From IMG/VR virus record IMGVR_UViG_3300046321_000023, positions 1 to 42,215 of that record: DNA of 42,215 nt. One strand, given 5' to 3'. Each line of letters begins with the position of its first letter. Within the stretch, counting starts at the first letter, position 1. Both the position numbers and the translations under genes were made by a program. The DNA is from a virus. Below the pieces are notes generated by a model. That model saw only the letters and a list, made by a program, of their open reading frames with translations, was not told the origin of the DNA and did not search any database. Shown here piece by piece: positions 27,316 through 40,306 of this stretch.

Positions 27316-28731
27316 TTAATAGGGTGAAATCGCTTCTAGCTCTAGGTTTAGAGTTGCGAAAGTTGGTGAACCTACATCAATAGGTGCTGATTTAACAATG
27401 CCTACTATGTGTAGTGGCTCATAGTACCCATCACCGTCGTCATCAAGACCAGACCACACAGCGGGGGTAGCATCAAGACTCTGTAAGAGTTCCACCGTCC
27501 CTTTGACGTTGCCTTTGTCTACCCAGATAGTTTGACTTGTCTTAGGAATACCAGAGCGTTGAACAAGTGTTGCAACAGTACCATCAAAATCCCTTGTTAC
27601 AGTGCTGTAGTTTATGTAATCTCGTACTGCGTTGTACTGCGTTTGCCCTACATAGAACTGAGAGCCAAGGATTAAAGACCCGACACCCACTGTCCCGCTT
27701 CCTGTAAAGGTAACTGTAATAACAGGTGATGATACTGGTGGGAGGTCAAACTTGGTGACGGATTTTCTATAGCTAAAAGGAGTAAAAAACCAAGAGTAGT
27801 AGCTTGTGATGTTACGAGTAGTTAGGTTAACTGTTTCGTCATATACTGTGCTTGCTCCACTGGTCACTACAATTCTGACACTGCTTACACCACTGAGATT
27901 TGACAGGTCGATAGCATCAACCCTTTGTGCTGGTGTGATAACAACTACAAGTGGTGAAATTGATTCAGTTCTGCCGCCGTACCTCGCATCAAACATTAAC
28001 TTCTGATTACTTTTACCAATAAGCACCCAAGAATCTGCCTCAACCGTTAATGGGTTATACCTGTTGTTTGCAATAGCGGATTTGTAAATCTTAGCAGAAT
28101 TTACACCGTCACTTACAATACCGTCAAGTGGGTATGTTTCTGAGAGTAGGTGTGCAAAATACGAAGCAGAAACATACCGCCAGTACGCAGGAGAACTTGC
28201 TGGTGTATTACCGATATTACCGTTAGATAGTGAGACGTAGTACAATCTTTTTGCACCACCCTGTGTGTACGCATTTTCTGTATAGACAAATGCTCCTGCT
28301 ACGTAAGTAGTACCAGCGGCGTACAATGTTGAAGACGTTGGCTCTGTATTTGTCTCACTAATCAGTGCCCAAGGTGGAGAGTTGTCTAAAGGTCTTGAGT
28401 GATTATCATCAACAACAGATTCATACACCAAGTTAGTAGCTGCATCTATTACACGTTCACCACTTTGATATACCAAACCATTAGTAAAGTACGGATAACT
28501 ACTTCCTAGATATTTCCACCAAAGAGTAGATGACTCTAAGGGGTGGTCATAGTTTCCATTTTGCAGTGAAACCCATATCCTACGCAAACCACCCCCTCTG
28601 GGGTCTAAATCTGAAACCTTCACGCCTGCTGCATACGTGGCGAACTCGTCGTACCCCGCTTCTTCACCTTCGTACACGGACGTACTAGTGAGTCTTGCAG
28701 GTGTAATCTCCAAAGGAGGTATTACTCTCAT
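27316..28731 (-). CDS. Distal tail/tip protein, probable carbohydrate-binding
   Basis: A 471-residue protein directly after the tape measure, the usual place of distal tail or tail-tip proteins. It opens MRVIPPLEITPARLTSTSV, a common start for siphophage tip proteins. The first 260 residues have three internally similar segments built around Y..G..V......Y.S...N....P....WW/YW (QNGNYDHPLESSTLWW; VVDDNHSRPLDNSPPW; SNGNIGNTPASSPAYW), resembling carbohydrate-binding module repeats. The C-terminal 200 residues are beta-rich. It overlaps the tape-measure stop (ATGA). Confidence 0.75.
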   Translation of the reverse strand: MRVIPPLEITPARLTSTSVYEGEEAGYDEFATYAAGVKVSDLDPRGGGLRRIWVSLQNGNYDHPLESSTLWWKYLGSSYPYFTNGLVYQSGERVIDAATNLVYESVVDDNHSRPLDNSPPWALISETNTEPTSSTLYAAGTTYVAGAFVYTENAYTQGGAKRLYYVSLSNGNIGNTPASSPAYWRYVSASYFAHLLSETYPLDGIVSDGVNSAKIYKSAIANNRYNPLTVEADSWVLIGKSNQKLMFDARYGGRTESISPLVVVITPAQRVDAIDLSNLSGVSSVRIVVTSGASTVYDETVNLTTRNITSYYSWFFTPFSYRKSVTKFDLPPVSSPVITVTFTGSGTVGVGSLILGSQFYVGQTQYNAVRDYINYSTVTRDFDGTVATLVQRSGIPKTSQTIWVDKGNVKGTVELLQSLDATPAVWSGLDDDGDGYYEPLHIVGIVKSAPIDVGSPTFATLNLELEAISPY

Positions 28732-31700
28732 AACACCGCCCTTGTTGGTGGAGCACCTATCGCATTATCCTTCTCTGCTAGGTCTTTCATTTTCTTATTA
28801 CTTTCTTTAATCTGAACCAACTCTGTTTTCACAGCTTTCAGTTCTCCTTGCATTTCACGTAGAGCAACCACTAACACTTCGTTGTTATCTCTTGGAGATT
28901 GAAGTCTTGCGAACAGCTCTCTGTTATCAGCAGCAGGTAGAATGCGTTCACCCTTGTGGATTCTTGCAGTCATGTCGTAAGGTACATTGTTAATACCTAC
29001 AGCAAACGCACCCTCCTCGATTGGTGCAGTTGCAGCAGTCTTACTCTTAAGAAACTTCTTCAAGGGGTCTAACGGGTCGTAACCCTTCTTAACAGCGTTC
29101 TTGTAGTCAGCACTTTCAGGATTAGCAGCAGATGCGCCTAAGATAGCTTGCATCAACTTGTCACCTGTCAACATAGAATCTACAAAATGCTTGTAGCCTG
29201 CTTCATCGGGATTGCGGCTGTAGTATTCACGATAAGCTGCGACAATATCTTTATTTTCCTGTCCTGCTATATCTTCATACTTTGGTGCTTTACCACTTGT
29301 ACTGCCACCACCAGAACCGCCGCCTCCACCACCTGAGCTGCCGCCACCAGAAGTAACAGGGTCAGGCGTGTTGTTAGTAGGGGCTGCTGCGATTGACCTT
29401 GCCAAGCTTGCCAACGACTCATCAAAAGCTTTCACAGCGTCTGCAACGGAGATAATTGAAGTATCAATACCATTCAACTTATCAAGCTGTGCTTGAGCTA
29501 CAGATAAAACGGTGTCTAAGCGTTTCATCTCTGCTTCGTAGTCTGTTTTTAACTTATCCGCGTCTTTCTTCAACTGGTCAAGCATCTGCTGCTCTACACT
29601 AACTTGACTAACCGTTAGTCTAGAGAGTTCCGCAAGTTTTGCAGCAGTTTTTGCTTGCTCTAGTTTGAACTCCCTTGCTGTCTTAAATGTTGATGTGTCA
29701 CCGTTAGACAGTGCCTTCAAAACACCACTCATTGACTCAGTAGTGGGGAACTTCCCTGTAGCCTTGGCTATGTCTATAATTGCATCAAGTTGAGACTTCG
29801 CTTGCTCACGAGTCATTGTTGGTTCTATTTCAGCCTTGGTTGTGCGTATAGCATCAAGAAGTGTGGTAACAGAGTCCAAAGACTTAGACCGCGCTTCCTG
29901 AGCTTTTGTATTAGCTTCCGTAGCTGCAACATTAGCTTCAGTGATAGTTTTACGTTCGGCTTCGACGGCTCGTTTTAAAGCACCAAAAGATTTGTCAACT
30001 ACGGCCTTCAAATCCTCTATAGCCCAAATCATCTTGGTCAAGGAGATAACAGCTTCGTCAGTTACGTTCAATAACTGCTTTGCGCGGTCAACTTCTAACT
30101 GAGATTTTCTACCTAGCAAGACGTCTAATTTACCAGCTAAATCATAGCGTGTTTGAGCAAGTTGCTCTTCTGCACGTCGAGCTTCCTCTGCTGCAGCAGC
30201 ACCTGCTCTAGCGCCTTCAGCAGCACCTCTCGCAGCTTCAATTTGTCGTCTTAGTTCCTCGTTGTAGTCATAGACGGCAATCTCGGATTCTGACATACCT
30301 CTTGTACCGATATTACGAGCTAGATTTGCAGCACCTGCTATGTCTCCTGTGGCTTTCATAAGTTCAATACTTAGGTTTATTGTCTCTCCTGTAAGTTTCT
30401 TCATGGTTGGTGAGGAGTTCTCTAAACCATACATCACATCGCGTAAGCCTTGAGCAGCTTCATCACTACCAATAGCTAACTCTAGGAATGGTAAACCAAT
30501 CAAGGAGTTGTTGAATAGTGCTAGGTCGTTTAGAACTGTTGGGATTTCGTCTTTACCACCGCCGAAGATAGCAAATAAAGCCATTGCACCTGCTGCGAAT
30601 AAACCGACAGGGCCTAATGCAGCCATAATGGATGCACCCATACCACCAACGGCAGTAGTAGCTACAGGGGCTACAGTGCCAATTGTTGTTAGAGCAGGGG
30701 CAAGCGTACTGAGACCTTGACTTGCTAATTCAATACCTGCTAATGATGTTGTTGAAACACCAGATACACCAGCCACTGACCCTGCTGTTGACCCACCGCC
30801 AAACAACCCACCTAACCAGTCAAAGCCCTTGGATAAGAGACTATCACTGCCTTTACCCATAATCATATCCAAGAGTCCACCGCCTTGCCCACCACCCATC
30901 AACCCAGACAGCAATGCTTGCACATTAGCTTGGATATTTAATGTAATAGTCTTAGTCAACTCAGCAACAATCAAGTCACGGAGTTTCTTCTTACCAGCTT
31001 TAGCGCCTTGGGTCATACCTGTAACTAATGCATCAGCAACACCTTCTGAGAACTTTTCTAGCTTAGCATCTTCTAATTCTTTGATAGCTGTTTTATTACC
31101 TTGACGTAGTAAATCCTCTTGGCGTTTGCCTACGCCTTCAATACGAGCCTCTTCTTTTGTAAGGTCAGCTTTTGTCCCGGCATCAATTTCTTTATTTCCT
31201 GTGAGTAATGCGTTGTAACGCTTACGAGCAGCTTCTAATTCCTCTGTCTTTTTACGATTAACTTCAAGTAGATTTTTTTCAAGCTCGTAAGCCCTTTTCA
31301 TTTCTTCTCTCTGTTCGCCGTAAGTACCAATCACGGAGTTTCTAAAGTCCAAGTCGCGTTGTGCAGAATCCATAGAGAATGTTTCTTTATTGAAACTACT
31401 GTCACTGTCCTCTTGTAATTTTTTACGAGCAGCCTCGGTTTGCTTCATCAGAGCCTCAGTGTCTAACTTGCGAGTATTAGTCATCTCCCTGAGTTTTTGA
31501 ACCTCAAGGTTGTATGCCGCTGAAGAAGTTTCAGCGTAGCCGTTTCTCTGTAAGTACGCAACATGCTCTGCTTGTAGTGCCGTGGCACTGTCAAGTCTAG
31601 CAATACGTAGTTCACTGGCTTTTTCTGCACTTAAGCCGATTAGTTCGTTATCTAAAGTCTGAGCTTTATTCTTATCAACGAGAGTTTGAATCTCCGCAAT

Positions 31701-34340
31701 AGTAGCATCTCTCAGTTTTTGGATGTACTCAAGTTGTGCGTATCCCTTCTCAAATTCTTTGTCCTTGATGTCTGATTCAGCCTTCTTGATTTTACCTTCT
31801 AAGGTTTCAATTTCCTTTTTGGAGTTAACCTTCTTCTTTGCAATTTCAATTTCAGCGGTATAAAACTTGATAGAGTCAGCTAAGGACTTCTGCTCAATGC
31901 TTGCTTTTTGAGTGCTGTAGTCATAGTCATTAACTAATCCACGCTTATGTTCACTGTTGATAGCGTCCATCGCCATCTTAGCGTTACGCACAGCTTCGTT
32001 ACGGTCATTCTCGATTTGCTGTTGTTGTGCGCCTAGGGTGTCACGGATTGCTCCTGCTTGACCCTTACCTTTTGGTGTCTTATAATGGTGCTCAATATTT
32101 TTAATTAAATCATCAGCTTCTTGTTTATATCCAGAGGCTTCCTCTGGTGTTTTAGCTCCACGGATTTTTGCAGCAGCTAAACGGTAAGTTGTTGCACTCT
32201 CTTCTGCAATTTTCTTAGCTCGTTGCTCGGGAGTTAGACCTGTATTAGCCTTATACTGGCTCTTCATCTTCTCTGTTTCCTGCGCTGCCTTGATAGCTTC
32301 ACGATTGATTTTATTAGCCTCTAAGTCAACCTTCTTATCTGCTTGCTTTGCTGCAGTACCAGACATGATAGCGTCATTTAGTTTCAAGTGGGCAGTTAGT
32401 TCAGTGCCGAAATCTTCGGTACGCATTTGTCCGATATTCCCGAAAGCTCTTCCTGCTTCTTGTAAAGCAGGGGAAGCAAAGTTCTTACCTGCGATAGCGG
32501 TCAACACTTCCGGCTTGGTGATGGCTGCAACACCTGCCATCATTGCACCAATTGATGCCCCGATTTGCTTAATACCGAAACCAATAACAGAGACAACAAC
32601 AGCAAACCCTCTCCACGCTGTTGTTAGTGCGCTGATATTTGCACCATTCTCAATGGCGCTGTAGAACTCTTCCTTAACTAACTTGATGGCGTCTTTAACT
32701 TCGTGAAAAAGTTTCTCAATGTCTGAGAGGTCACCCTTCTGGATTGCTACAGCCTGAGAATCACTTTCTTGTTTTAGTTTAATTGCTTCTGCGACAGCTT
32801 CATGTTGTTTACCAACTTCAACTAAACTCTTAACTTCTTCGATTTGAGCAAAAGTAACCCTACCTGTGGCAGCACCCAATTCAGTTAAGGCTTTCACAGG
32901 GTCGTCAGCTAATTTAGAATAACCTGCTACTGTATCTTTTACAGCAATACCAGCGTACTTCTGAAGTTCAAGTGCGATTGTGGCAATTCCGCTAATAGAT
33001 TCTTTACCAAGGTTACCTGCTTTAGCTATTTCAGTAATAGCCTTTGCGAAGTCCATAGACGTACCTGCACCGCTTGCTAATGCACTAGACATAGCAAGAG
33101 CTTCATTCTTTGTAATAGCGATTGCAGCGCCACTCATTGAGAGGGCTACAGATAATTCATGAGAAGTTGTAATTACTTCTTTATAAGCAAGGACAAAACC
33201 AACTAGGGCTGCGATACCTGTTGCTACACCAAGTGCAACTGAAGCACCGATAACAGAGCCAACCCTGTCAAAGGCTTTGACCAGAGAAGATGTTTCTCCT
33301 GTTGTAGCTACTAATTTTGCACGTAGGTACTCCAGAGCAGGAGTTACAAATGTTATATCTGCTGCAAATTTTGCAATAGCCTTACCTGAGTCAATGAATG
33401 CGCCGACAACAAACTGACCGAGTACAAGAACAACATCCTTAAAGCCCACCACAATCTGTTTAAAAGCAGAAGACAAGCCTGCCTTCATCTCTTCCCCGCT
33501 CGCGCCAACCTGAGCAAAAATGCCACGCATTTGGTCTGCCTGTTGGATTAGAACTGTGAGAGGATTTTGGCCACCCGCAAGGGACACACCAATATCTCCT
33601 AACTGCACAGAGGTTGCACGAGCTAAGTATTGTAATTGGTCACGGCGTTTTGTTTGCTGAATTGTATCGACACCTGCTAGGGTATTTCTAGCTTTAGCCG
33701 CTGCTAGATAGTCCGCATTTAATGAGCGAATCTGAGTCTTTAACTGAGAGTAAGTAGTTAACTCAGTATTTGTTTGGTCTTTAAACTGCTCAATTAACCT
33801 GAACTTTTCACGATACAAGTCTTTTGCTTGTTTGGTAGAGAGTGCAGCAAATGTAGTACCCTCTGCTTCAGCAGATTGAGCTTTGATTGTTTGACGGTAG
33901 GCTTCACGTAAAGCACCGAGTTCATTTTTCAGAACTTTGATTGCACCGATGGATTTGTCGAAAGGTTCAGAGCCTTGTAACTTTCTTTGTCTGTCTATAG
34001 TATCACCAAGCTTTTGCAACTCGTTCTCGGCTAGCCCTGATGCCTTACCCATAGCTAGGATTGAAGACTGCCCCTTAGAATAACCATCAGACATGAACTT
34101 CAGAATTGACTCTTGACGTTCTAATACAGTTTGATTTTTCTTAATTGCCGTAGAGTTCTCCTCAACAGCTTTTGTAGTTGTATCGATATCGCTTGCAGTA
34201 GATCTGGACTCACTGCCTAGCTTACTTAAAGGCTTATTTAAAGCTGCTACAGACGTAGCTAATGCACTAACTTTTGTGATGGCATCATCTAACTGCTTTG
34301 TCTCTACGGTAAATCTTAACTGGGATAAATCGAAGCTCAT
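28728..34340 (-). CDS. Tape measure protein
   Basis: A 1870-residue tail length tape measure. The N-terminal 120 residues are helical (DDAITKVSALATSVAALNKP), followed by a hydrophobic Gly/Ala-rich region near 360-390 and 590-610, long coiled coils (residues about 690-1130), a second hydrophobic Gly-rich part near 1190-1290, more coiled coil, a poly-Gly/Ser linker near 1665-1685, and a C-terminal domain with a DUF4214-like segment (YREYYSRNPDEAGYKHFVDS) and the ARIHKGERILPA motif. At about 0.15 nm per residue the tail would be near 280 nm. AGGA precedes the ATG. Confidence 0.92.
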   Translation of the reverse strand: MSFDLSQLRFTVETKQLDDAITKVSALATSVAALNKPLSKLGSESRSTASDIDTTTKAVEENSTAIKKNQTVLERQESILKFMSDGYSKGQSSILAMGKASGLAENELQKLGDTIDRQRKLQGSEPFDKSIGAIKVLKNELGALREAYRQTIKAQSAEAEGTTFAALSTKQAKDLYREKFRLIEQFKDQTNTELTTYSQLKTQIRSLNADYLAAAKARNTLAGVDTIQQTKRRDQLQYLARATSVQLGDIGVSLAGGQNPLTVLIQQADQMRGIFAQVGASGEEMKAGLSSAFKQIVVGFKDVVLVLGQFVVGAFIDSGKAIAKFAADITFVTPALEYLRAKLVATTGETSSLVKAFDRVGSVIGASVALGVATGIAALVGFVLAYKEVITTSHELSVALSMSGAAIAITKNEALAMSSALASGAGTSMDFAKAITEIAKAGNLGKESISGIATIALELQKYAGIAVKDTVAGYSKLADDPVKALTELGAATGRVTFAQIEEVKSLVEVGKQHEAVAEAIKLKQESDSQAVAIQKGDLSDIEKLFHEVKDAIKLVKEEFYSAIENGANISALTTAWRGFAVVVSVIGFGIKQIGASIGAMMAGVAAITKPEVLTAIAGKNFASPALQEAGRAFGNIGQMRTEDFGTELTAHLKLNDAIMSGTAAKQADKKVDLEANKINREAIKAAQETEKMKSQYKANTGLTPEQRAKKIAEESATTYRLAAAKIRGAKTPEEASGYKQEADDLIKNIEHHYKTPKGKGQAGAIRDTLGAQQQQIENDRNEAVRNAKMAMDAINSEHKRGLVNDYDYSTQKASIEQKSLADSIKFYTAEIEIAKKKVNSKKEIETLEGKIKKAESDIKDKEFEKGYAQLEYIQKLRDATIAEIQTLVDKNKAQTLDNELIGLSAEKASELRIARLDSATALQAEHVAYLQRNGYAETSSAAYNLEVQKLREMTNTRKLDTEALMKQTEAARKKLQEDSDSSFNKETFSMDSAQRDLDFRNSVIGTYGEQREEMKRAYELEKNLLEVNRKKTEELEAARKRYNALLTGNKEIDAGTKADLTKEEARIEGVGKRQEDLLRQGNKTAIKELEDAKLEKFSEGVADALVTGMTQGAKAGKKKLRDLIVAELTKTITLNIQANVQALLSGLMGGGQGGGLLDMIMGKGSDSLLSKGFDWLGGLFGGGSTAGSVAGVSGVSTTSLAGIELASQGLSTLAPALTTIGTVAPVATTAVGGMGASIMAALGPVGLFAAGAMALFAIFGGGKDEIPTVLNDLALFNNSLIGLPFLELAIGSDEAAQGLRDVMYGLENSSPTMKKLTGETINLSIELMKATGDIAGAANLARNIGTRGMSESEIAVYDYNEELRRQIEAARGAAEGARAGAAAAEEARRAEEQLAQTRYDLAGKLDVLLGRKSQLEVDRAKQLLNVTDEAVISLTKMIWAIEDLKAVVDKSFGALKRAVEAERKTITEANVAATEANTKAQEARSKSLDSVTTLLDAIRTTKAEIEPTMTREQAKSQLDAIIDIAKATGKFPTTESMSGVLKALSNGDTSTFKTAREFKLEQAKTAAKLAELSRLTVSQVSVEQQMLDQLKKDADKLKTDYEAEMKRLDTVLSVAQAQLDKLNGIDTSIISVADAVKAFDESLASLARSIAAAPTNNTPDPVTSGGGSSGGGGGGSGGGSTSGKAPKYEDIAGQENKDIVAAYREYYSRNPDEAGYKHFVDSMLTGDKLMQAILGASAANPESADYKNAVKKGYDPLDPLKKFLKSKTAATAPIEEGAFAVGINNVPYDMTARIHKGERILPAADNRELFARLQSPRDNNEVLVVALREMQGELKAVKTELVQIKESNKKMKDLAEKDNAIGAPPTRAVL

Positions 34341-34422: not shown

Positions 34423-34953
34423 TTAATCTTGTTCTGTTGTGTCTCGGTAGAACTCGCCATGATGTTCTATGCAGAAGTTTTTGTGTGCTTGGATAGCTTC
34501 TTGCTTAACAGAGAAGTAGCCTAGAAAAATTTGCTTGCCCTTCAACATAGGATTAACTATCCACATCCCTCTGGCTTTGTTCCAACTTACACCTTTGTAA
34601 CCTGATGTGTTGTCTTTACGGAGGGTAACATTCTTTTCATTCTCATACCTATTACACAACCTTAGATTATTAGCCTTGTTGTTGACCTTATCCATATCCT
34701 TGTGGTCTAAGAGTTTCCCATCGGGAATATCCCCATACATATACACCCAAGCTAAACGATGCGCTAAATACACTCGCTTGTTGTACCCAATATGTAGGTA
34801 ACCAGTGGTTTTCTTTAAACTTCCAGCGATATCCCCTACTTTTGTTCTTAAACAAGATGGACGAACCCAGATAAAAACACCTGTGTCTGGGTTGTAATCG
34901 AAGATGCTTCTTAATTCTTCCTGAGTTAACTCAATCTTTTTAGGTTTTGTCAT
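34423..34953 (-). CDS. Freestanding HNH homing endonuclease
   Basis: A 176-residue HNH_3 endonuclease of the 'NPETG' subgroup (FDYNPDTGVFIW). The core is YLAHRLAWVYMYGDIPDGKL then LLDHKDMDKVNNKANNLR, where Asp replaces the usual middle Asn of DHxN. The AP2-like end (SGYKGVSWNKARGMW; IFLGYFSVKQEAIQAH) binds DNA. AAGGA precedes the ATG at good spacing. It sits between the tail chaperone G-T and the tape measure, flanked by a stem-loop upstream and a terminator downstream. Confidence 0.88.
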   Translation of the reverse strand: MTKPKKIELTQEELRSIFDYNPDTGVFIWVRPSCLRTKVGDIAGSLKKTTGYLHIGYNKRVYLAHRLAWVYMYGDIPDGKLLDHKDMDKVNNKANNLRLCNRYENEKNVTLRKDNTSGYKGVSWNKARGMWIVNPMLKGKQIFLGYFSVKQEAIQAHKNFCIEHHGEFYRDTTEQD

Positions 34954-34974
34954 TTTGTTTCCTTGTATGAAAAT

Positions 34975-35043
34975 GACATCTTGGTCAAATTAAGCGATAC
35001 AAGCGCCCTCTTCAATTACCACACTGCCGTGTACCAAGATGTC
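34975..35043 (-). other. Stem-loop RNA with 11-base perfect stem in HNH leader
   Basis: GACATCTTGGT (35043-35033 on the minus strand) and ACCAAGATGTC (34985-34975) pair perfectly over 11 bases, enclosing 47 bases that can form two small inner stems (ACAC/GTGT and GCG/CGC), a three-way-junction shape. It starts four bases after the G-T stop and ends 22 bases before the HNH ATG. It may be an attenuator, an RNase III site or a translational control element. Not a tRNA: no T-loop consensus. Confidence 0.55.
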
Positions 35044-35047
35044 TTAT

Positions 35048-35834
35048 TTAACTTTTCTTTTTGCTATCTTGCTTTGCTTTTTCAGCGTAAATACTGAGTA
35101 CTTCCCTGTCCAACCTCTTGAGGATATCAATTTCCCATTGCTCAGGAGTGATTTGTTTTAATTTAAAATATGCTTCAATCTCTGAGTACATAATGGGGTC
35201 AAATCCAAACCCATTAGAAGTTCTACTATCATTGAGATTTAAGAACCACCCCCAAACTTCAAAACAAGAAGCCGGTAACTCGGGGATATTCTCTAACTCT
35301 TTAGGCTTTATTCCTGTCTGTTCCCATACATTGTTAAGTTGGTTACGGAGAGAAGAGCCTGCACCACTTCCAAATACTGCACCTTTAAATTCAGCCTTGC
35401 AATACTCGATAGTGGCTTCAATATCCTCAGGTGCGAAAGTTCAGAAGTTGCTCACTTTCGGCAGTTACCGCCTCACGGATAAATGGGTAATCAGTCATCA
35501 AGCGGATGCATTCATCTTTTGAGTACGGGACTTCTTTACTATCTTCAACAATTCCTGACCATGAGATAACTCGTAAGGCACTTGATTGAATGGCAAAGTC
35601 CTCAGACTCTTGCAAAGACATTGGCTCAGGCTCTTTACCACGTTTCTTAGCTGCTTGTTCTTTTACTTGCATTTGTGAAAATGCATTACGGTAAAAATCC
35701 TTAACTACTTTACTGAGTGAACCACGTACTTTGATTTTGATATCAGTAATAGTACCATCAGGCATGGTAAGGTCAAACTCGTAGCCCACCTCTGCTGCTT
35801 TTGTGGGATCATTTTTTTTCAAATCGAACGACAT
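35048..35834 (-). CDS. Tail assembly chaperone G-T fusion made by +1 frameshift
   Basis: Reading G from 35834 and shifting +1 at TTT-C (35438-35435) gives a 261-residue fusion: 133 residues of G, then 128 residues starting APEDIEATIEYCKAEF and ending KAKQDSKKKS at TAA 35048. The T part has no start codon of its own near its beginning, and its frame is closed by a TGA directly upstream, so it can only be expressed by a shift in the short AAC-TTT-CGC-ACC window. G and G-T pairs in siphophages load the tape measure for tail assembly. The position just before the tape measure, with an HNH gene between, agrees. Confidence 0.82.
35427..35438 (-). promoter_or_regulatory. +1 programmed frameshift site
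   Basis: On the minus strand the sequence TTTCGCACCTGA ends the G frame. The tRNA-Phe on TTT can slip one base to TTC, after which GCA CCT GAG continues in the +1 frame. The next zero-frame codon CGC may be slow, and the stop TGA is six bases further. The shift window is bounded upstream by a +1-frame TGA, so slippage must occur here. Confidence 0.7.
35427..35834 (-). CDS. Tail assembly chaperone G
   Basis: The zero-frame product, 135 aa, beginning MSFDLKKNDPTKAAEVGYEF and ending SEQLLNFRT. It follows the tail tube gene and precedes the tape measure, the fixed place of the G chaperone. The N-terminal half is beta-rich (DLTMPDGTITDIKIKVRG) and the rest helical. AAGGA precedes the ATG, right after an A-tract of about nine bases. 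Driven by the consensus promoter at 35951-35979. The G to G-T ratio would be set by the frameshift near the stop. Confidence 0.85.
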   Translation of the reverse strand: MSFDLKKNDPTKAAEVGYEFDLTMPDGTITDIKIKVRGSLSKVVKDFYRNAFSQMQVKEQAAKKRGKEPEPMSLQESEDFAIQSSALRVISWSGIVEDSKEVPYSKDECIRLMTDYPFIREAVTAESEQLLNFRT

Positions 35835-35880
35835 AATATTCCTTTTTTTTTGTTTCTAGTGAGATTTACATAAATAGAGT

Positions 35881-35898
35881 AACCCCAGAATTGGGGTT
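35881..35898 (-). other. Short hairpin in the tail chaperone leader
   Basis: AACCCC and GGGGTT form a 6-base stem with a 6-base loop, without a T-run on either strand. It lies in the 5' untranslated leader between the promoter at 35951 and the ATG at 35834. It could stabilise the transcript or affect initiation. The 236-base gap 35835-36069 holds only this, the promoter and the terminator; no small gene is seen. Confidence 0.5.
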
Positions 35899-35950
35899 AT
35901 CTTCTTGGACTGCACAGCTTTTATAAGTATTATTAACTGCACATAGTATT

Positions 35951-35979
35951 ATTATATCATACAATCTGTTACATGTCAA
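35951..35979 (-). promoter_or_regulatory. Perfect consensus sigma70 promoter for the tail operon
   Basis: On the minus strand TTGACA (35979-35974), 17 bases, then TATAAT (35956-35951), all exact, with an extended TG one base upstream of the -10. It follows the strong terminator at 36019-36048 and drives the chaperone and tape-measure transcript. Confidence 0.88.
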
Positions 35980-36014
35980 GGGAAATATACTAAAGTGCAT
36001 TACATACAGGCGTT

Positions 36015-36048
36015 AAAAAACCCCTAAGGAGGTTACTCCTTAGGGGTT
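36015..36048 (-). terminator. Strong rho-independent terminator after the tail tube gene
   Basis: AACCCCTAAGGAG and CTCCTTAGGGGTT make a 13-base perfect stem with a 4-base loop, followed by TTTT on the minus strand. It lies 21 bases past the tail tube stop. Confidence 0.93.
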
Positions 36049-36069
36049 ATATATTCTCACTAGAGGATA

Positions 36070-37278
36070 TTAAAGGGTACTGTCTTGTACAGCAAGAGTA
36101 GTTGCAGGGAGTCCACCTGTAGTTACGGAGTTTAACAACGCTGTAAAGGAGGTAGAAGCTGTCAGACCTAACTCCCCGTCCGTTTTATCAAACGAACCAA
36201 GTTTAACTCTAGGGATTGTGTAGCTAACAAAATCCGCATTGGCTGCGTCAGAGGTTGCAAGAGCAAACACTAAAGATACTTCGGTTTCGTCTTTGAAGTA
36301 ATCACGGAAAACAGCATCTTGGAAATAAACACTCAAGTTACCTGTTGCTTTAATACGACCTGTGAAGATGTCCTGAACGGCATTAGAGCCAACAACAACT
36401 GCGTTCTCTGTGGCGCGTTCCACGTTGAAGTCTGCGGAAGTAATCAAAGCTGCTGCTAGTCCGTTGACAAGGACTGCACCTTGGACACTTGCAAAAATTC
36501 CGTTTGTTCCCTGCGCTGTAGGCGATGTAAAATACTGTGAAGTACCTACTTGCCCAAGGTCTGCGCCCATAAAGGAGAAGTCAACTGTTGCTAAACCTGT
36601 AGCTGGCAATTGCGTGTTCATAGAGGTAGTTTTCATACCCACATAAACTTCAGATTGTGCAATATCAGAGTAGAACTCTTCGATAGTGAAGGACTGGTCT
36701 GTGTGACCTGTCAACGGTACGAATGTATCCTTACCACGAACAGTAGCAATTACAGAGGCGATTGGGCCTTCAGCAAGCAGTGCAGTATTGTTCAGAACTT
36801 TAACCGTCAAGACAGTGGCTGTCATAGAAACAATCAAAAGATTCTTAGATACGTTCAGTACGTTAAGCGCACCGCCTGTCAAGGCAATGACTTTACCTAC
36901 GTTGAAGTTATCTGTCAAGAAAGAACCAGTCGCTCGTGTAACAGTCCAGAAACTACCTGAAGCTGCGATAGTTACTGACATAGTTGCTGTCACAGCACCA
37001 GTAGTAAAATCACGAGCTAGGATAGCCTGCATAAAATCGCTGTAAGACGAAGGTGACAACTCACCATTCAAAGAGCCTTCTGCGCTACGCACACCGTGAC
37101 GTGCATCAGCAGTCTGACGGTCTACGCGAATTTCTGCGCTCTCATACTGCTCTTTTTTTAGAGACATTGCAGAGGTAACACGACGAAGATACTTCGCACT
37201 TGCCGCACCTGCTAATGTTCCAAAAGTTGTTTCTTTTTTGTATGCTACGGTTTTTGCCGCACCTTTTCCGATTGTCAT
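36070..37278 (-). CDS. Major tail (tube) protein
   Basis: A 402-residue tail tube protein of the phage tube-2 type: the N-terminus MTIGKGAAKTVAYKKETTFG and the segment YLRRVTSAMSLKKEQYESAE are characteristic, followed by a beta-rich tube domain. A central Thr/Val-rich segment at about 95-185 (SVTIAASGSFWTVTRATGSF) looks like an inserted beta domain exposed on the tail. It lies between the tail terminator/HNH genes and the chaperone gene, ends at a strong terminator, and is expected to be abundant. AAGGA precedes the ATG. Confidence 0.85.
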   Translation of the reverse strand: MTIGKGAAKTVAYKKETTFGTLAGAASAKYLRRVTSAMSLKKEQYESAEIRVDRQTADARHGVRSAEGSLNGELSPSSYSDFMQAILARDFTTGAVTATMSVTIAASGSFWTVTRATGSFLTDNFNVGKVIALTGGALNVLNVSKNLLIVSMTATVLTVKVLNNTALLAEGPIASVIATVRGKDTFVPLTGHTDQSFTIEEFYSDIAQSEVYVGMKTTSMNTQLPATGLATVDFSFMGADLGQVGTSQYFTSPTAQGTNGIFASVQGAVLVNGLAAALITSADFNVERATENAVVVGSNAVQDIFTGRIKATGNLSVYFQDAVFRDYFKDETEVSLVFALATSDAANADFVSYTIPRVKLGSFDKTDGELGLTASTSFTALLNSVTTGGLPATTLAVQDSTL

Positions 37279-37287
37279 GTGTTTTCC

Positions 37288-37941
37288 TTACTCAATTAAA
37301 TTACATTTTGCAAAATGTTCTTGTTTAAAGTCCAAGGGACTTACACCGTGTCTGTCTGTATAAGACATTCCACATTGTTTTAGTTCCTCTAACCGTTCTT
37401 TCCTAAATTGCACTGCTAAATTAAAAGCGGTGTCAGGGGAATAGATAGAGAAATTGAATCTTTTTCTACATAGTTTAGAATTTATATCATTCCATGTAGC
37501 TGTCCAAGCAACATGTTTCTTACGCTTGTAACAGTACTCCATAAATACACCACATACAGAAGATTTATTTCTAATAGATAATCGTATATTCTGATTATTT
37601 TCTCTGACAGTTTTTAAACACAAATTAGAAATTTCATTATTGAATGGATTACCATCTAAATGGTCAATAACCTTATCCTCTGATATGTTTCCGTGAAGTA
37701 GTACCCATATAATTCGATGTACTTGATAGTGCTGCTTATCACACATTGTTCTCCAAGAATGTACGCGGGAGTTTGATTTCAACTCTCCCTCTTTTGTCCC
37801 TGCTTGTGAACCCGCTGAACGTATAATTCGTTTATTGTTCCTTCCTCCATACCTGTTGTTTTTCCACACAAGCCCTGAAGGGGAGTCAGCATCCACACTG
37901 TAAATCTCGTTTAATTTTTCAAAGTTGTATTTATCTATCAT
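37288..37941 (-). CDS. Freestanding HNH homing endonuclease
   Basis: A 217-residue HNH_3 endonuclease of the 'SPSGL' subgroup (YSVDADSPSGLVWKNN). The core is YQVHRIIWVLLHGNISEDKV then IDHLDGNPFNNEISNL. The C-terminal part is AP2-like (KSSVCGVFMEY; AWTATWNDINSK) and ends near the YTDRHG motif shared with two other HNH genes, plus a 17-residue extension. TGGAG precedes the ATG. It separates the tail terminator gene from the tail tube gene. Confidence 0.88.
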   Translation of the reverse strand: MIDKYNFEKLNEIYSVDADSPSGLVWKNNRYGGRNNKRIIRSAGSQAGTKEGELKSNSRVHSWRTMCDKQHYQVHRIIWVLLHGNISEDKVIDHLDGNPFNNEISNLCLKTVRENNQNIRLSIRNKSSVCGVFMEYCYKRKKHVAWTATWNDINSKLCRKRFNFSIYSPDTAFNLAVQFRKERLEELKQCGMSYTDRHGVSPLDFKQEHFAKCNLIE

Positions 37942-39739: not shown

Positions 39740-40306
39740 TTAAATTATATCTTGTTTTGAGGATGTCGTAGACTTCGTGTATTCTGCTAAAGCCTGACTG
39801 TGTTCAAAAGAGAACTCACCGTAGAACTCTTTGACCCATTCCAATCTGGCAACGATAGCCTCATCTTTTGTATTAAATCGCTTACGAAGAGGGCACTTTA
39901 CATCTACACTTATATGCGCTACCCACTTATTACGTGCTTTGTCAAAATGCACGCCTATAGTGCCACTTGTGTTTTTCCCAGAAGCAATCTTATTCGTGTT
40001 ATTAGACCTACGAGAACACTCACGTAAGTTAGATATCATATTGTTCAGACGATTACCATCGATGTGGTCGATATCCTCAATTGGAAATCTTCCATGCACA
40101 TGTAGCCAAACTAAGCGATGGGCGTAATTCAACTCACCTGCAAAGTTAATACGCCAGTAACCACTGCTATGTAAAGTACCTGCAACACCTCCAGCCCTGC
40201 ATCCTCCACGACATTGTTTCCAAGTTAAGTTCCCCGTTTCAGGGTTGTAATCTAATGCATCTCTTACTTGTTTTCGAGTTAGCTCAGGTGAATTTATTTT
40301 CGACAT
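39740..40306 (-). CDS. Freestanding HNH homing endonuclease
   Basis: A 188-residue HNH_3 endonuclease of the 'NPETG' subgroup (ALDYNPETGNLTWKQ). The core is YAHRLVWLHVHGRFPIEDID then HIDGNRLNNMISNLREC. The AP2-like part (TSGTIGVHFDKARNKWVAHI) and a Ser/Thr-rich tail follow. AGAGGAT precedes the ATG. It lies between the capsid and adaptor genes, after a promoter and a structured leader. Confidence 0.9.
   Translation of the reverse strand: MSKINSPELTRKQVRDALDYNPETGNLTWKQCRGGCRAGGVAGTLHSSGYWRINFAGELNYAHRLVWLHVHGRFPIEDIDHIDGNRLNNMISNLRECSRRSNNTNKIASGKNTSGTIGVHFDKARNKWVAHISVDVKCPLRKRFNTKDEAIVARLEWVKEFYGEFSFEHSQALAEYTKSTTSSKQDII

Follow-up and report, generated by a model that had tools for sequence, protein, structure and literature searches.

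The locus analyzed here raises the question of how a reading frame with no start codon of its own, lying just behind a short tail chaperone gene, comes to be translated and, if ribosomes pass from one frame into the other, in which direction they shift. We address this question using the window, which denotes the whole 42,215-nucleotide stretch of viral DNA under analysis, and by comparing the junction of the two frames across homologous loci.

The G and T frames and their setting

The elements of the locus, all of them on the minus strand, are as follows.

35427-35834 (-): G, the short tail assembly chaperone; 135 aa, ATG start, TGA stop at 35429-35427
35427-35429 (-): TGA stop of G, two codons past TTT
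35048-35440 (-): T frame, start-less and +1 relative to G; 130 codons stop to stop, first codon ACT (35440), closed by TAA (35050-35048)
35433-35441 (-): candidate shift site AAC_TTT_CGC (E, P and A codons); +1 re-pairing would move TTT to TTC, followed by GCA
36070-37278 (-): tail tube protein gene, upstream of G (PF18906 Phage_tube_2, E 1e-42)
28728-34340 (-): tape measure protein gene, downstream of T (phrog_24, tail length tape measure protein, E 7e-36)

The last codons of G on the minus strand read CTG AAC TTT CGC ACC TGA. The T frame opens 2 nt before TTT, with an in-frame TGA immediately 5' of the ACT at 35440, and the two frames overlap by 14 nt. An earlier sequence-only reading had described G as ending in TTT CGC ACC TGA, with a start-less +1 frame continuing for 128 codons past the junction to the TAA at 35048 and with about four codons available for a shift; the frames bear out this description in each respect, the 128 codons corresponding to the 130 counted from stop to stop.

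G is similar to phrog_313 (Tail assembly chaperone, E 6e-15), and T to Pfam PF23812 (Phage_TAC_18, E 2e-17) and to the PHROG tail-chaperone families phrog_4966 and phrog_3817. A G-T fusion in which TTTC is read as a single Phe aligns colinearly with phrog_8233 (tail assembly chaperone) over residues 90-259, spanning the junction, and scores 39.3 bits versus 23.4 for G alone. The pair lies between the tail tube and tape measure genes, with an HNH gene preceding the latter. By the similarity of both halves to chaperone families and by this gene order, G and T are a tail assembly chaperone pair, the identity that had first been assigned to them.

Several further elements surround the pair. A perfect sigma-70 consensus (TTGACA, 17 nt, TATAAT, extended TG) is found directly upstream of G at 35951-35979 (-), and a terminator-like hairpin at 36014-36053 stands behind the tail tube gene and before the predicted promoter, as if G-T and the following genes were under their own promoter. 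A second terminator-like hairpin, TAACCCCAATTCTGGGGTTA, occupies 35880-35899 (-) in the leader between the predicted promoter and G. At the other end, a 16-nt inverted repeat (34970-34985 and 35033-35048, 47-nt spacer) extends from the stop codon of T to a point just short of the HNH gene.

A near relative on an 87 kb virus contig (L002/L012) has the same junction, with G 99% and T 85% identical. Three HNH endonuclease genes (34423-34953, 37288-37941 and 39740-40306, all on the minus strand) interrupt the head-tail cluster of the window; the one between T and the tape measure gene, at 34423-34953, is not seen as an ORF in this relative. Before the tail tube gene, the window has an HNH gene (37288-37941), the near relative a different putative endonuclease (L012:680-1504, GIY-YIG-like by eye) and Curvibacter phage P26059A an annotated putative endonuclease. 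Judging from these gene contents, the position before the tail tube gene is one place at which mobile endonucleases are swapped.

Conservation of the junction in relatives that need +1

Two phage isolates, Limnohabitans phage DC31 and Curvibacter phage P26059A, carry G homologues of 46% and 39% identity, respectively, and a junction, AAC_TTT_CGA, at which +1 is needed. Frameshifting is not mentioned in the papers on either phage, and both records contain a gene call that is corrected here: T is unannotated in the DC31 record (PQ492658.1, 67258-67736) and is begun at an internal codon in that of P26059A (KY981271.1, 17434-17661). A one-base sequencing or assembly error splitting a single G-T gene, a caveat of the sequence-only reading, would look identical in a single contig, but the same frame break at the same codons in both isolates and in dozens of independent contigs from other samples removes it, leaving a probability close to nil.

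As our first profile search contained junction columns, we added two scans with T-core-only profiles (alignments A3 and A4), which have none. These scans yielded 124 loci, of which 74 need +1, 48 need -1 and 2 are truncated. In all 74 of the +1 loci, found without use of the junction, G carries close to its end an in-frame TTT with C or T as the next base, preceded by AAY in 71, so the conservation of the TTT-C site that had been put forward as a check holds across homologues, with C or T after TTT. The codon after TTT is mostly CGN and otherwise CAA, CAG, TGC or TGT; over 64 distinct +1 rows the A-site codons are CGA (36), CGC (11), CAA (5), TGT (4), CGT (3), TGC (3) and CAG (2). The commonest CGN codon in the relatives' loci is CGT, yet it takes only 3 of the 64 A sites, a preference confounded by the fact that the same bases set the next T-frame residue. 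A search of phages at the DNA level gave zero matches, and relatives were not found in the bacterial genomes searched with the T alignment.

The Phe codon at the site is TTT in 64/64 distinct +1 relatives, against a background in which TTT makes up ~45-47% of Phe codons, and the base after it is C or T in 64/64, versus ~8% for the remaining in-frame TTT codons of these loci; binomial p-values for both features overstate independence because the rows are related. Within the first set of 39 relatives, no +1 re-pairing site other than TTT_C/T is shared by every member, in keeping with the original designation of TTT-C as the Phe slip site, and in the relatives 1-5 sense codons separate TTT from the G stop. 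The same reading had called the shift window unusually narrow. This does not stand, since the same spacing occurs in 24/39 relatives and the TTT site is retained in others even where as much as 56 nt is open upstream; the narrowness is not special because the +1-frame stop arises from Leu-Asn codons (CTG|A, TTA|A). That reading had also overlooked the contribution of the next codon to the motif (CGN, with CAR/TGY less frequent), the existence of a known UUU_CGN class, and the use of -1 at this very site by close relatives.

The junction of the window has the attributes of the UUU_CGN +1 class, namely an in-frame TTT_CGN in the overlap (AAC_TTT_CGC) that is kept in +1 relatives. It lacks those of a lambda-type -1 site, as T lies in +1 and G_AAC_TTT is no X_XXY_YYZ heptamer. 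In the mechanism that we propose, most ribosomes would terminate at TGA and release G, and a small fraction would pause while Phe-tRNA occupies TTT in the P site and the A site presents CGC. This tRNA would then re-pair one base forward, on TTC, and reading would continue through GCA CCT GAG, generating a 261-residue G-T fusion (...LLNF-APED...). On the model of lambda gpG/gpGT, the tape measure would be coated by G, and recruiting the tail tube protein would fall to the T part.

Expression of T as a separate protein, either by re-initiation once G has terminated or from an unconventional start codon (ATT, for instance), has in its favor that the G stop sits within the overlap and that several -1 and +1 phage records give T an internal start. 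Against it, none of the 64 +1 relatives has an ATG, GTG or TTG within the first 5 codons of T, and 23 of them have none within the first 60; this absence of a common start codon, which agrees with the original description of T as start-less, is accompanied by a conserved T sequence that begins at the junction itself and by the match of the fusion to a chaperone profile through the junction. We regard a separate T product as very unlikely. It is highly improbable, likewise, that the shift proceeds by -2, which leads to the same frame as +1, or by +1 at ACC_TGA, even though stop-adjacent shifts are known in prfB and in the tsh gene of Listeria phages. By inspection, a -2 shift from TTT places the Phe tRNA on ACT with no re-pairing, and a move from ACC to CCT creates a first-position mispair; moreover, the codon before the stop is not conserved, whereas TTT_C/T invariably is. 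The +1 slip at TTT_CGC is the reading that we retain.

Clear avoidance of in-frame TTT_CGN was found neither in the window (5 observed, 7.4 expected) nor in DC31 (8 observed, 11.3 expected), and some avoidance was found in P26059A (4 observed, 14.1 expected). As the other genes of the window contain four further in-frame TTT_CGN and do not clearly avoid the motif, the shift at the site by itself may be only weak. Possible stimulators lie on both sides of it. Most +1 relatives carry GAGGAR ~16-19 nt 5' of TTT (e.g. L013:1960-2002), and Glu-Glu pairs at this position start with GAG in 44/49 cases versus 18/207 elsewhere, an excess that points to nucleotide-level selection. The spacing of this element corresponds neither to that of the Shine-Dalgarno (SD) sequence in prfB (~3 nt) or dnaX (~10 nt) nor to any known +1 or -1 stimulator. 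GAGGAR is absent from the window, where the best SD-like match is weak (-2.5 kcal/mol, 11 nt away) and the A site is CGC. Downstream of the site, the window contains the following candidate.

35363-35416 (-): predicted hairpin, possible stimulator; begins 19 nt 3' of TTT, MFE -22.5 kcal/mol for 71 nt, z -3.7

A similar hairpin is predicted in one relative (L068). Across the family there is no consensus pairing downstream of the site, and both the +1 and the -1 groups show local structure there more often than at control positions.

Relatives that need -1 and changes of direction

The -1 relatives with Asn-Phe at the site usually carry the canonical heptamer A_AAT_TTT at the same position (e.g. 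L069 and L121), and the other -1 relatives have G_GGA_AAC or T-rich sites. Phages R5C, Pan1, L02 and CRP-6, on inspection, also look to need -1. In nearly all -1 relatives TTT is followed by A, and the association of this next base with direction yields a Fisher value of 1e-17 on rows that are related; a Phe tRNA would mispair on TTA, and the base after TTT thus separates the +1 and -1 groups. One +1 locus, L111, combines the -1 heptamer and the +1 motif in A_AAT_TTT_CGA (site at 1419-1427), making it a natural candidate for two-way shifting.

Neighboring pairs illustrate how small the sequence differences between directions can be. L121 (AATTTTCAGCCGAAGAATTAGA; -1, NF-SAEELE) compares with L119 (AACTTTCGACCCAAGTGATTTAGA; +1, NF-DPSDLE) with an equal number of residues and two bases fewer, and L148 (+1, NF-DQNDINQT) and L069 (-1, NF-YPKEDIAQT) are one base and one residue apart. 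A swap of direction would amount to an indel of 1-2 bases just past the Asn-Phe site, plus point changes, with the family using one and the same site for +1 through AAY_TTT_Y or for -1 through A_AAT_TTT.

The main tree was built from G plus T without junction columns (87 rows, 258 columns). It requires 5 direction changes, at least 4 of them forced by supported branches; a single origin is recovered in 0/200 bootstrap trees, and constraining the +1 rows to one clade is rejected (p-AU 9e-6). The G-only tree requires 6 changes and the T-core tree 5, the latter being short (104 columns) and poorly resolved, with better resolution in the concatenated tree. Some -1 relatives are nested within the +1 clade, and L069 (-1) is sister to L148 (+1), near the window, in the G+T, G-only and T-core trees alike. 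Recombination of a +1 G with a -1 T was considered as a source of the mixed directions and is not favored, since L069 and L148 fall together whether the tree is built from G only or from the T core. The change counts are silent on the ancestral direction; the outer relatives are -1, which suggests, without proving it, that the chaperone family had a -1 ancestor.

Direction has been reported to be conserved among orthologues in programmed ribosomal frameshifting, and mixed directions in one gene family to be a sign of transcriptional realignment (Antonov et al., PMC3711429). The latter observation would favor transcriptional slippage, in which RNA polymerase gains or loses a base and so joins the frames. 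The run available for slippage is only TTT (TTTT in -1 relatives), shorter than the usual A/T runs, and both groups preserve the phase of the site relative to the codons as well as the base that comes next, which makes slippage extremely unlikely as the source of the long form. Ribosomal shifting remains our preferred reading, and the chaperone family looks like an exception to the conserved-direction rule.

Taking these lines of evidence together, we consider it highly probable that the long chaperone form is produced by a +1 slip at TTT_CGC, with direction swaps at the same Asn-Phe site across the family, and the mechanism first proposed from the window is very probably right. On present comparisons it is also likely, with rather less assurance, that the Asn-Phe pair near the end of the chaperone gene is a two-way recoding hub, A_AAT_TTT leading to -1 and AAY_TTT_CGN to +1, which has switched at least 4 times through 1-2 base indels just 3' of it while largely keeping the junction protein. 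The natural -1/+1 neighbors (L069 and L148; L121 and L119) retain the protein despite the flip in direction and would make the sequence rules of direction and rate directly measurable.

Comparison with known frameshift systems

In the open-access literature we found no report of this motif in bacteriophage chaperones, nor of direction switching within one family. The novelty lies in how widely bacteriophages conserve the motif and in the repeated switching of direction at a single site. Known shifts in tailed phages are of -1, -2 or +1, differing from phage to phage, and UUU_Ynn is described as +1-prone in bacteria (PMC5009743). Lambda G/G-T and its homologues share with the window a short chaperone with a frameshifted extension, placed between the tail tube and tape measure genes, and a shift near the 3' end of G; lambda and most relatives shift by -1 on a heptamer, whereas the window would shift by +1 on TTT_C. 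The closest precedent in gene role, direction and TTT-CGN motif is that of the archaeal tailed viruses of the HF1 group, for which a TTT-CGC +1 shift at the tail chaperone junction was proposed from an alignment (PMC7230728). That group comprises six genomes with archaeal hosts, in contrast to the tens of diverse bacteriophage loci, with -1 sister groups, described here.

Other +1 systems resemble the junction in part. Bacterial prfB (CUU_UGA) also relies on a P-site slip on bacterial ribosomes, and many of the phage relatives have an SD-like element upstream, but prfB has a stop in the A site, whereas the phage relatives have a sense codon there and GAGGAR 16-19 nt off (absent in the window). 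The Listeria phages PSA, A118 and A500 (tsh, CCC_UGA) provide a +1 shift in a phage tail gene, at a proline codon beside a stop and in the tail shaft gene rather than a chaperone.

The remaining parallels come from eukaryotic viruses and genes. UUU_CGU has been shown to act as a +1 site in influenza PA-X, with a wider class with A-site CGN predicted (PMC3498833), and a UUU_CGN +1 site has been demonstrated in PLEKHM2 (PMC12551717). Influenza A PA-X (UCC_UUU_CGU) and human PLEKHM2 (UCC_UUU_CGG) have in common with the phage site the P-site slip from UUU to UUC and an A-site CGN; they differ in involving eukaryotic ribosomes, other genes and an E-site UCC in place of AAY. The same UUU_CGN motif is described as a +1 site in plant amalgaviruses, likewise with comparative support; unlike the phages, these are RNA viruses, and the motif serves polymerase expression. 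The phage junctions would add to this class a bacteriophage comparative case that is testable in ordinary bacteria. If the two-way reading of the Asn-Phe site is true, the tail chaperones would constitute both an exception to the rule of thumb that direction is conserved and a bacterial counterpart of the influenza-type UUU_CGN shift.
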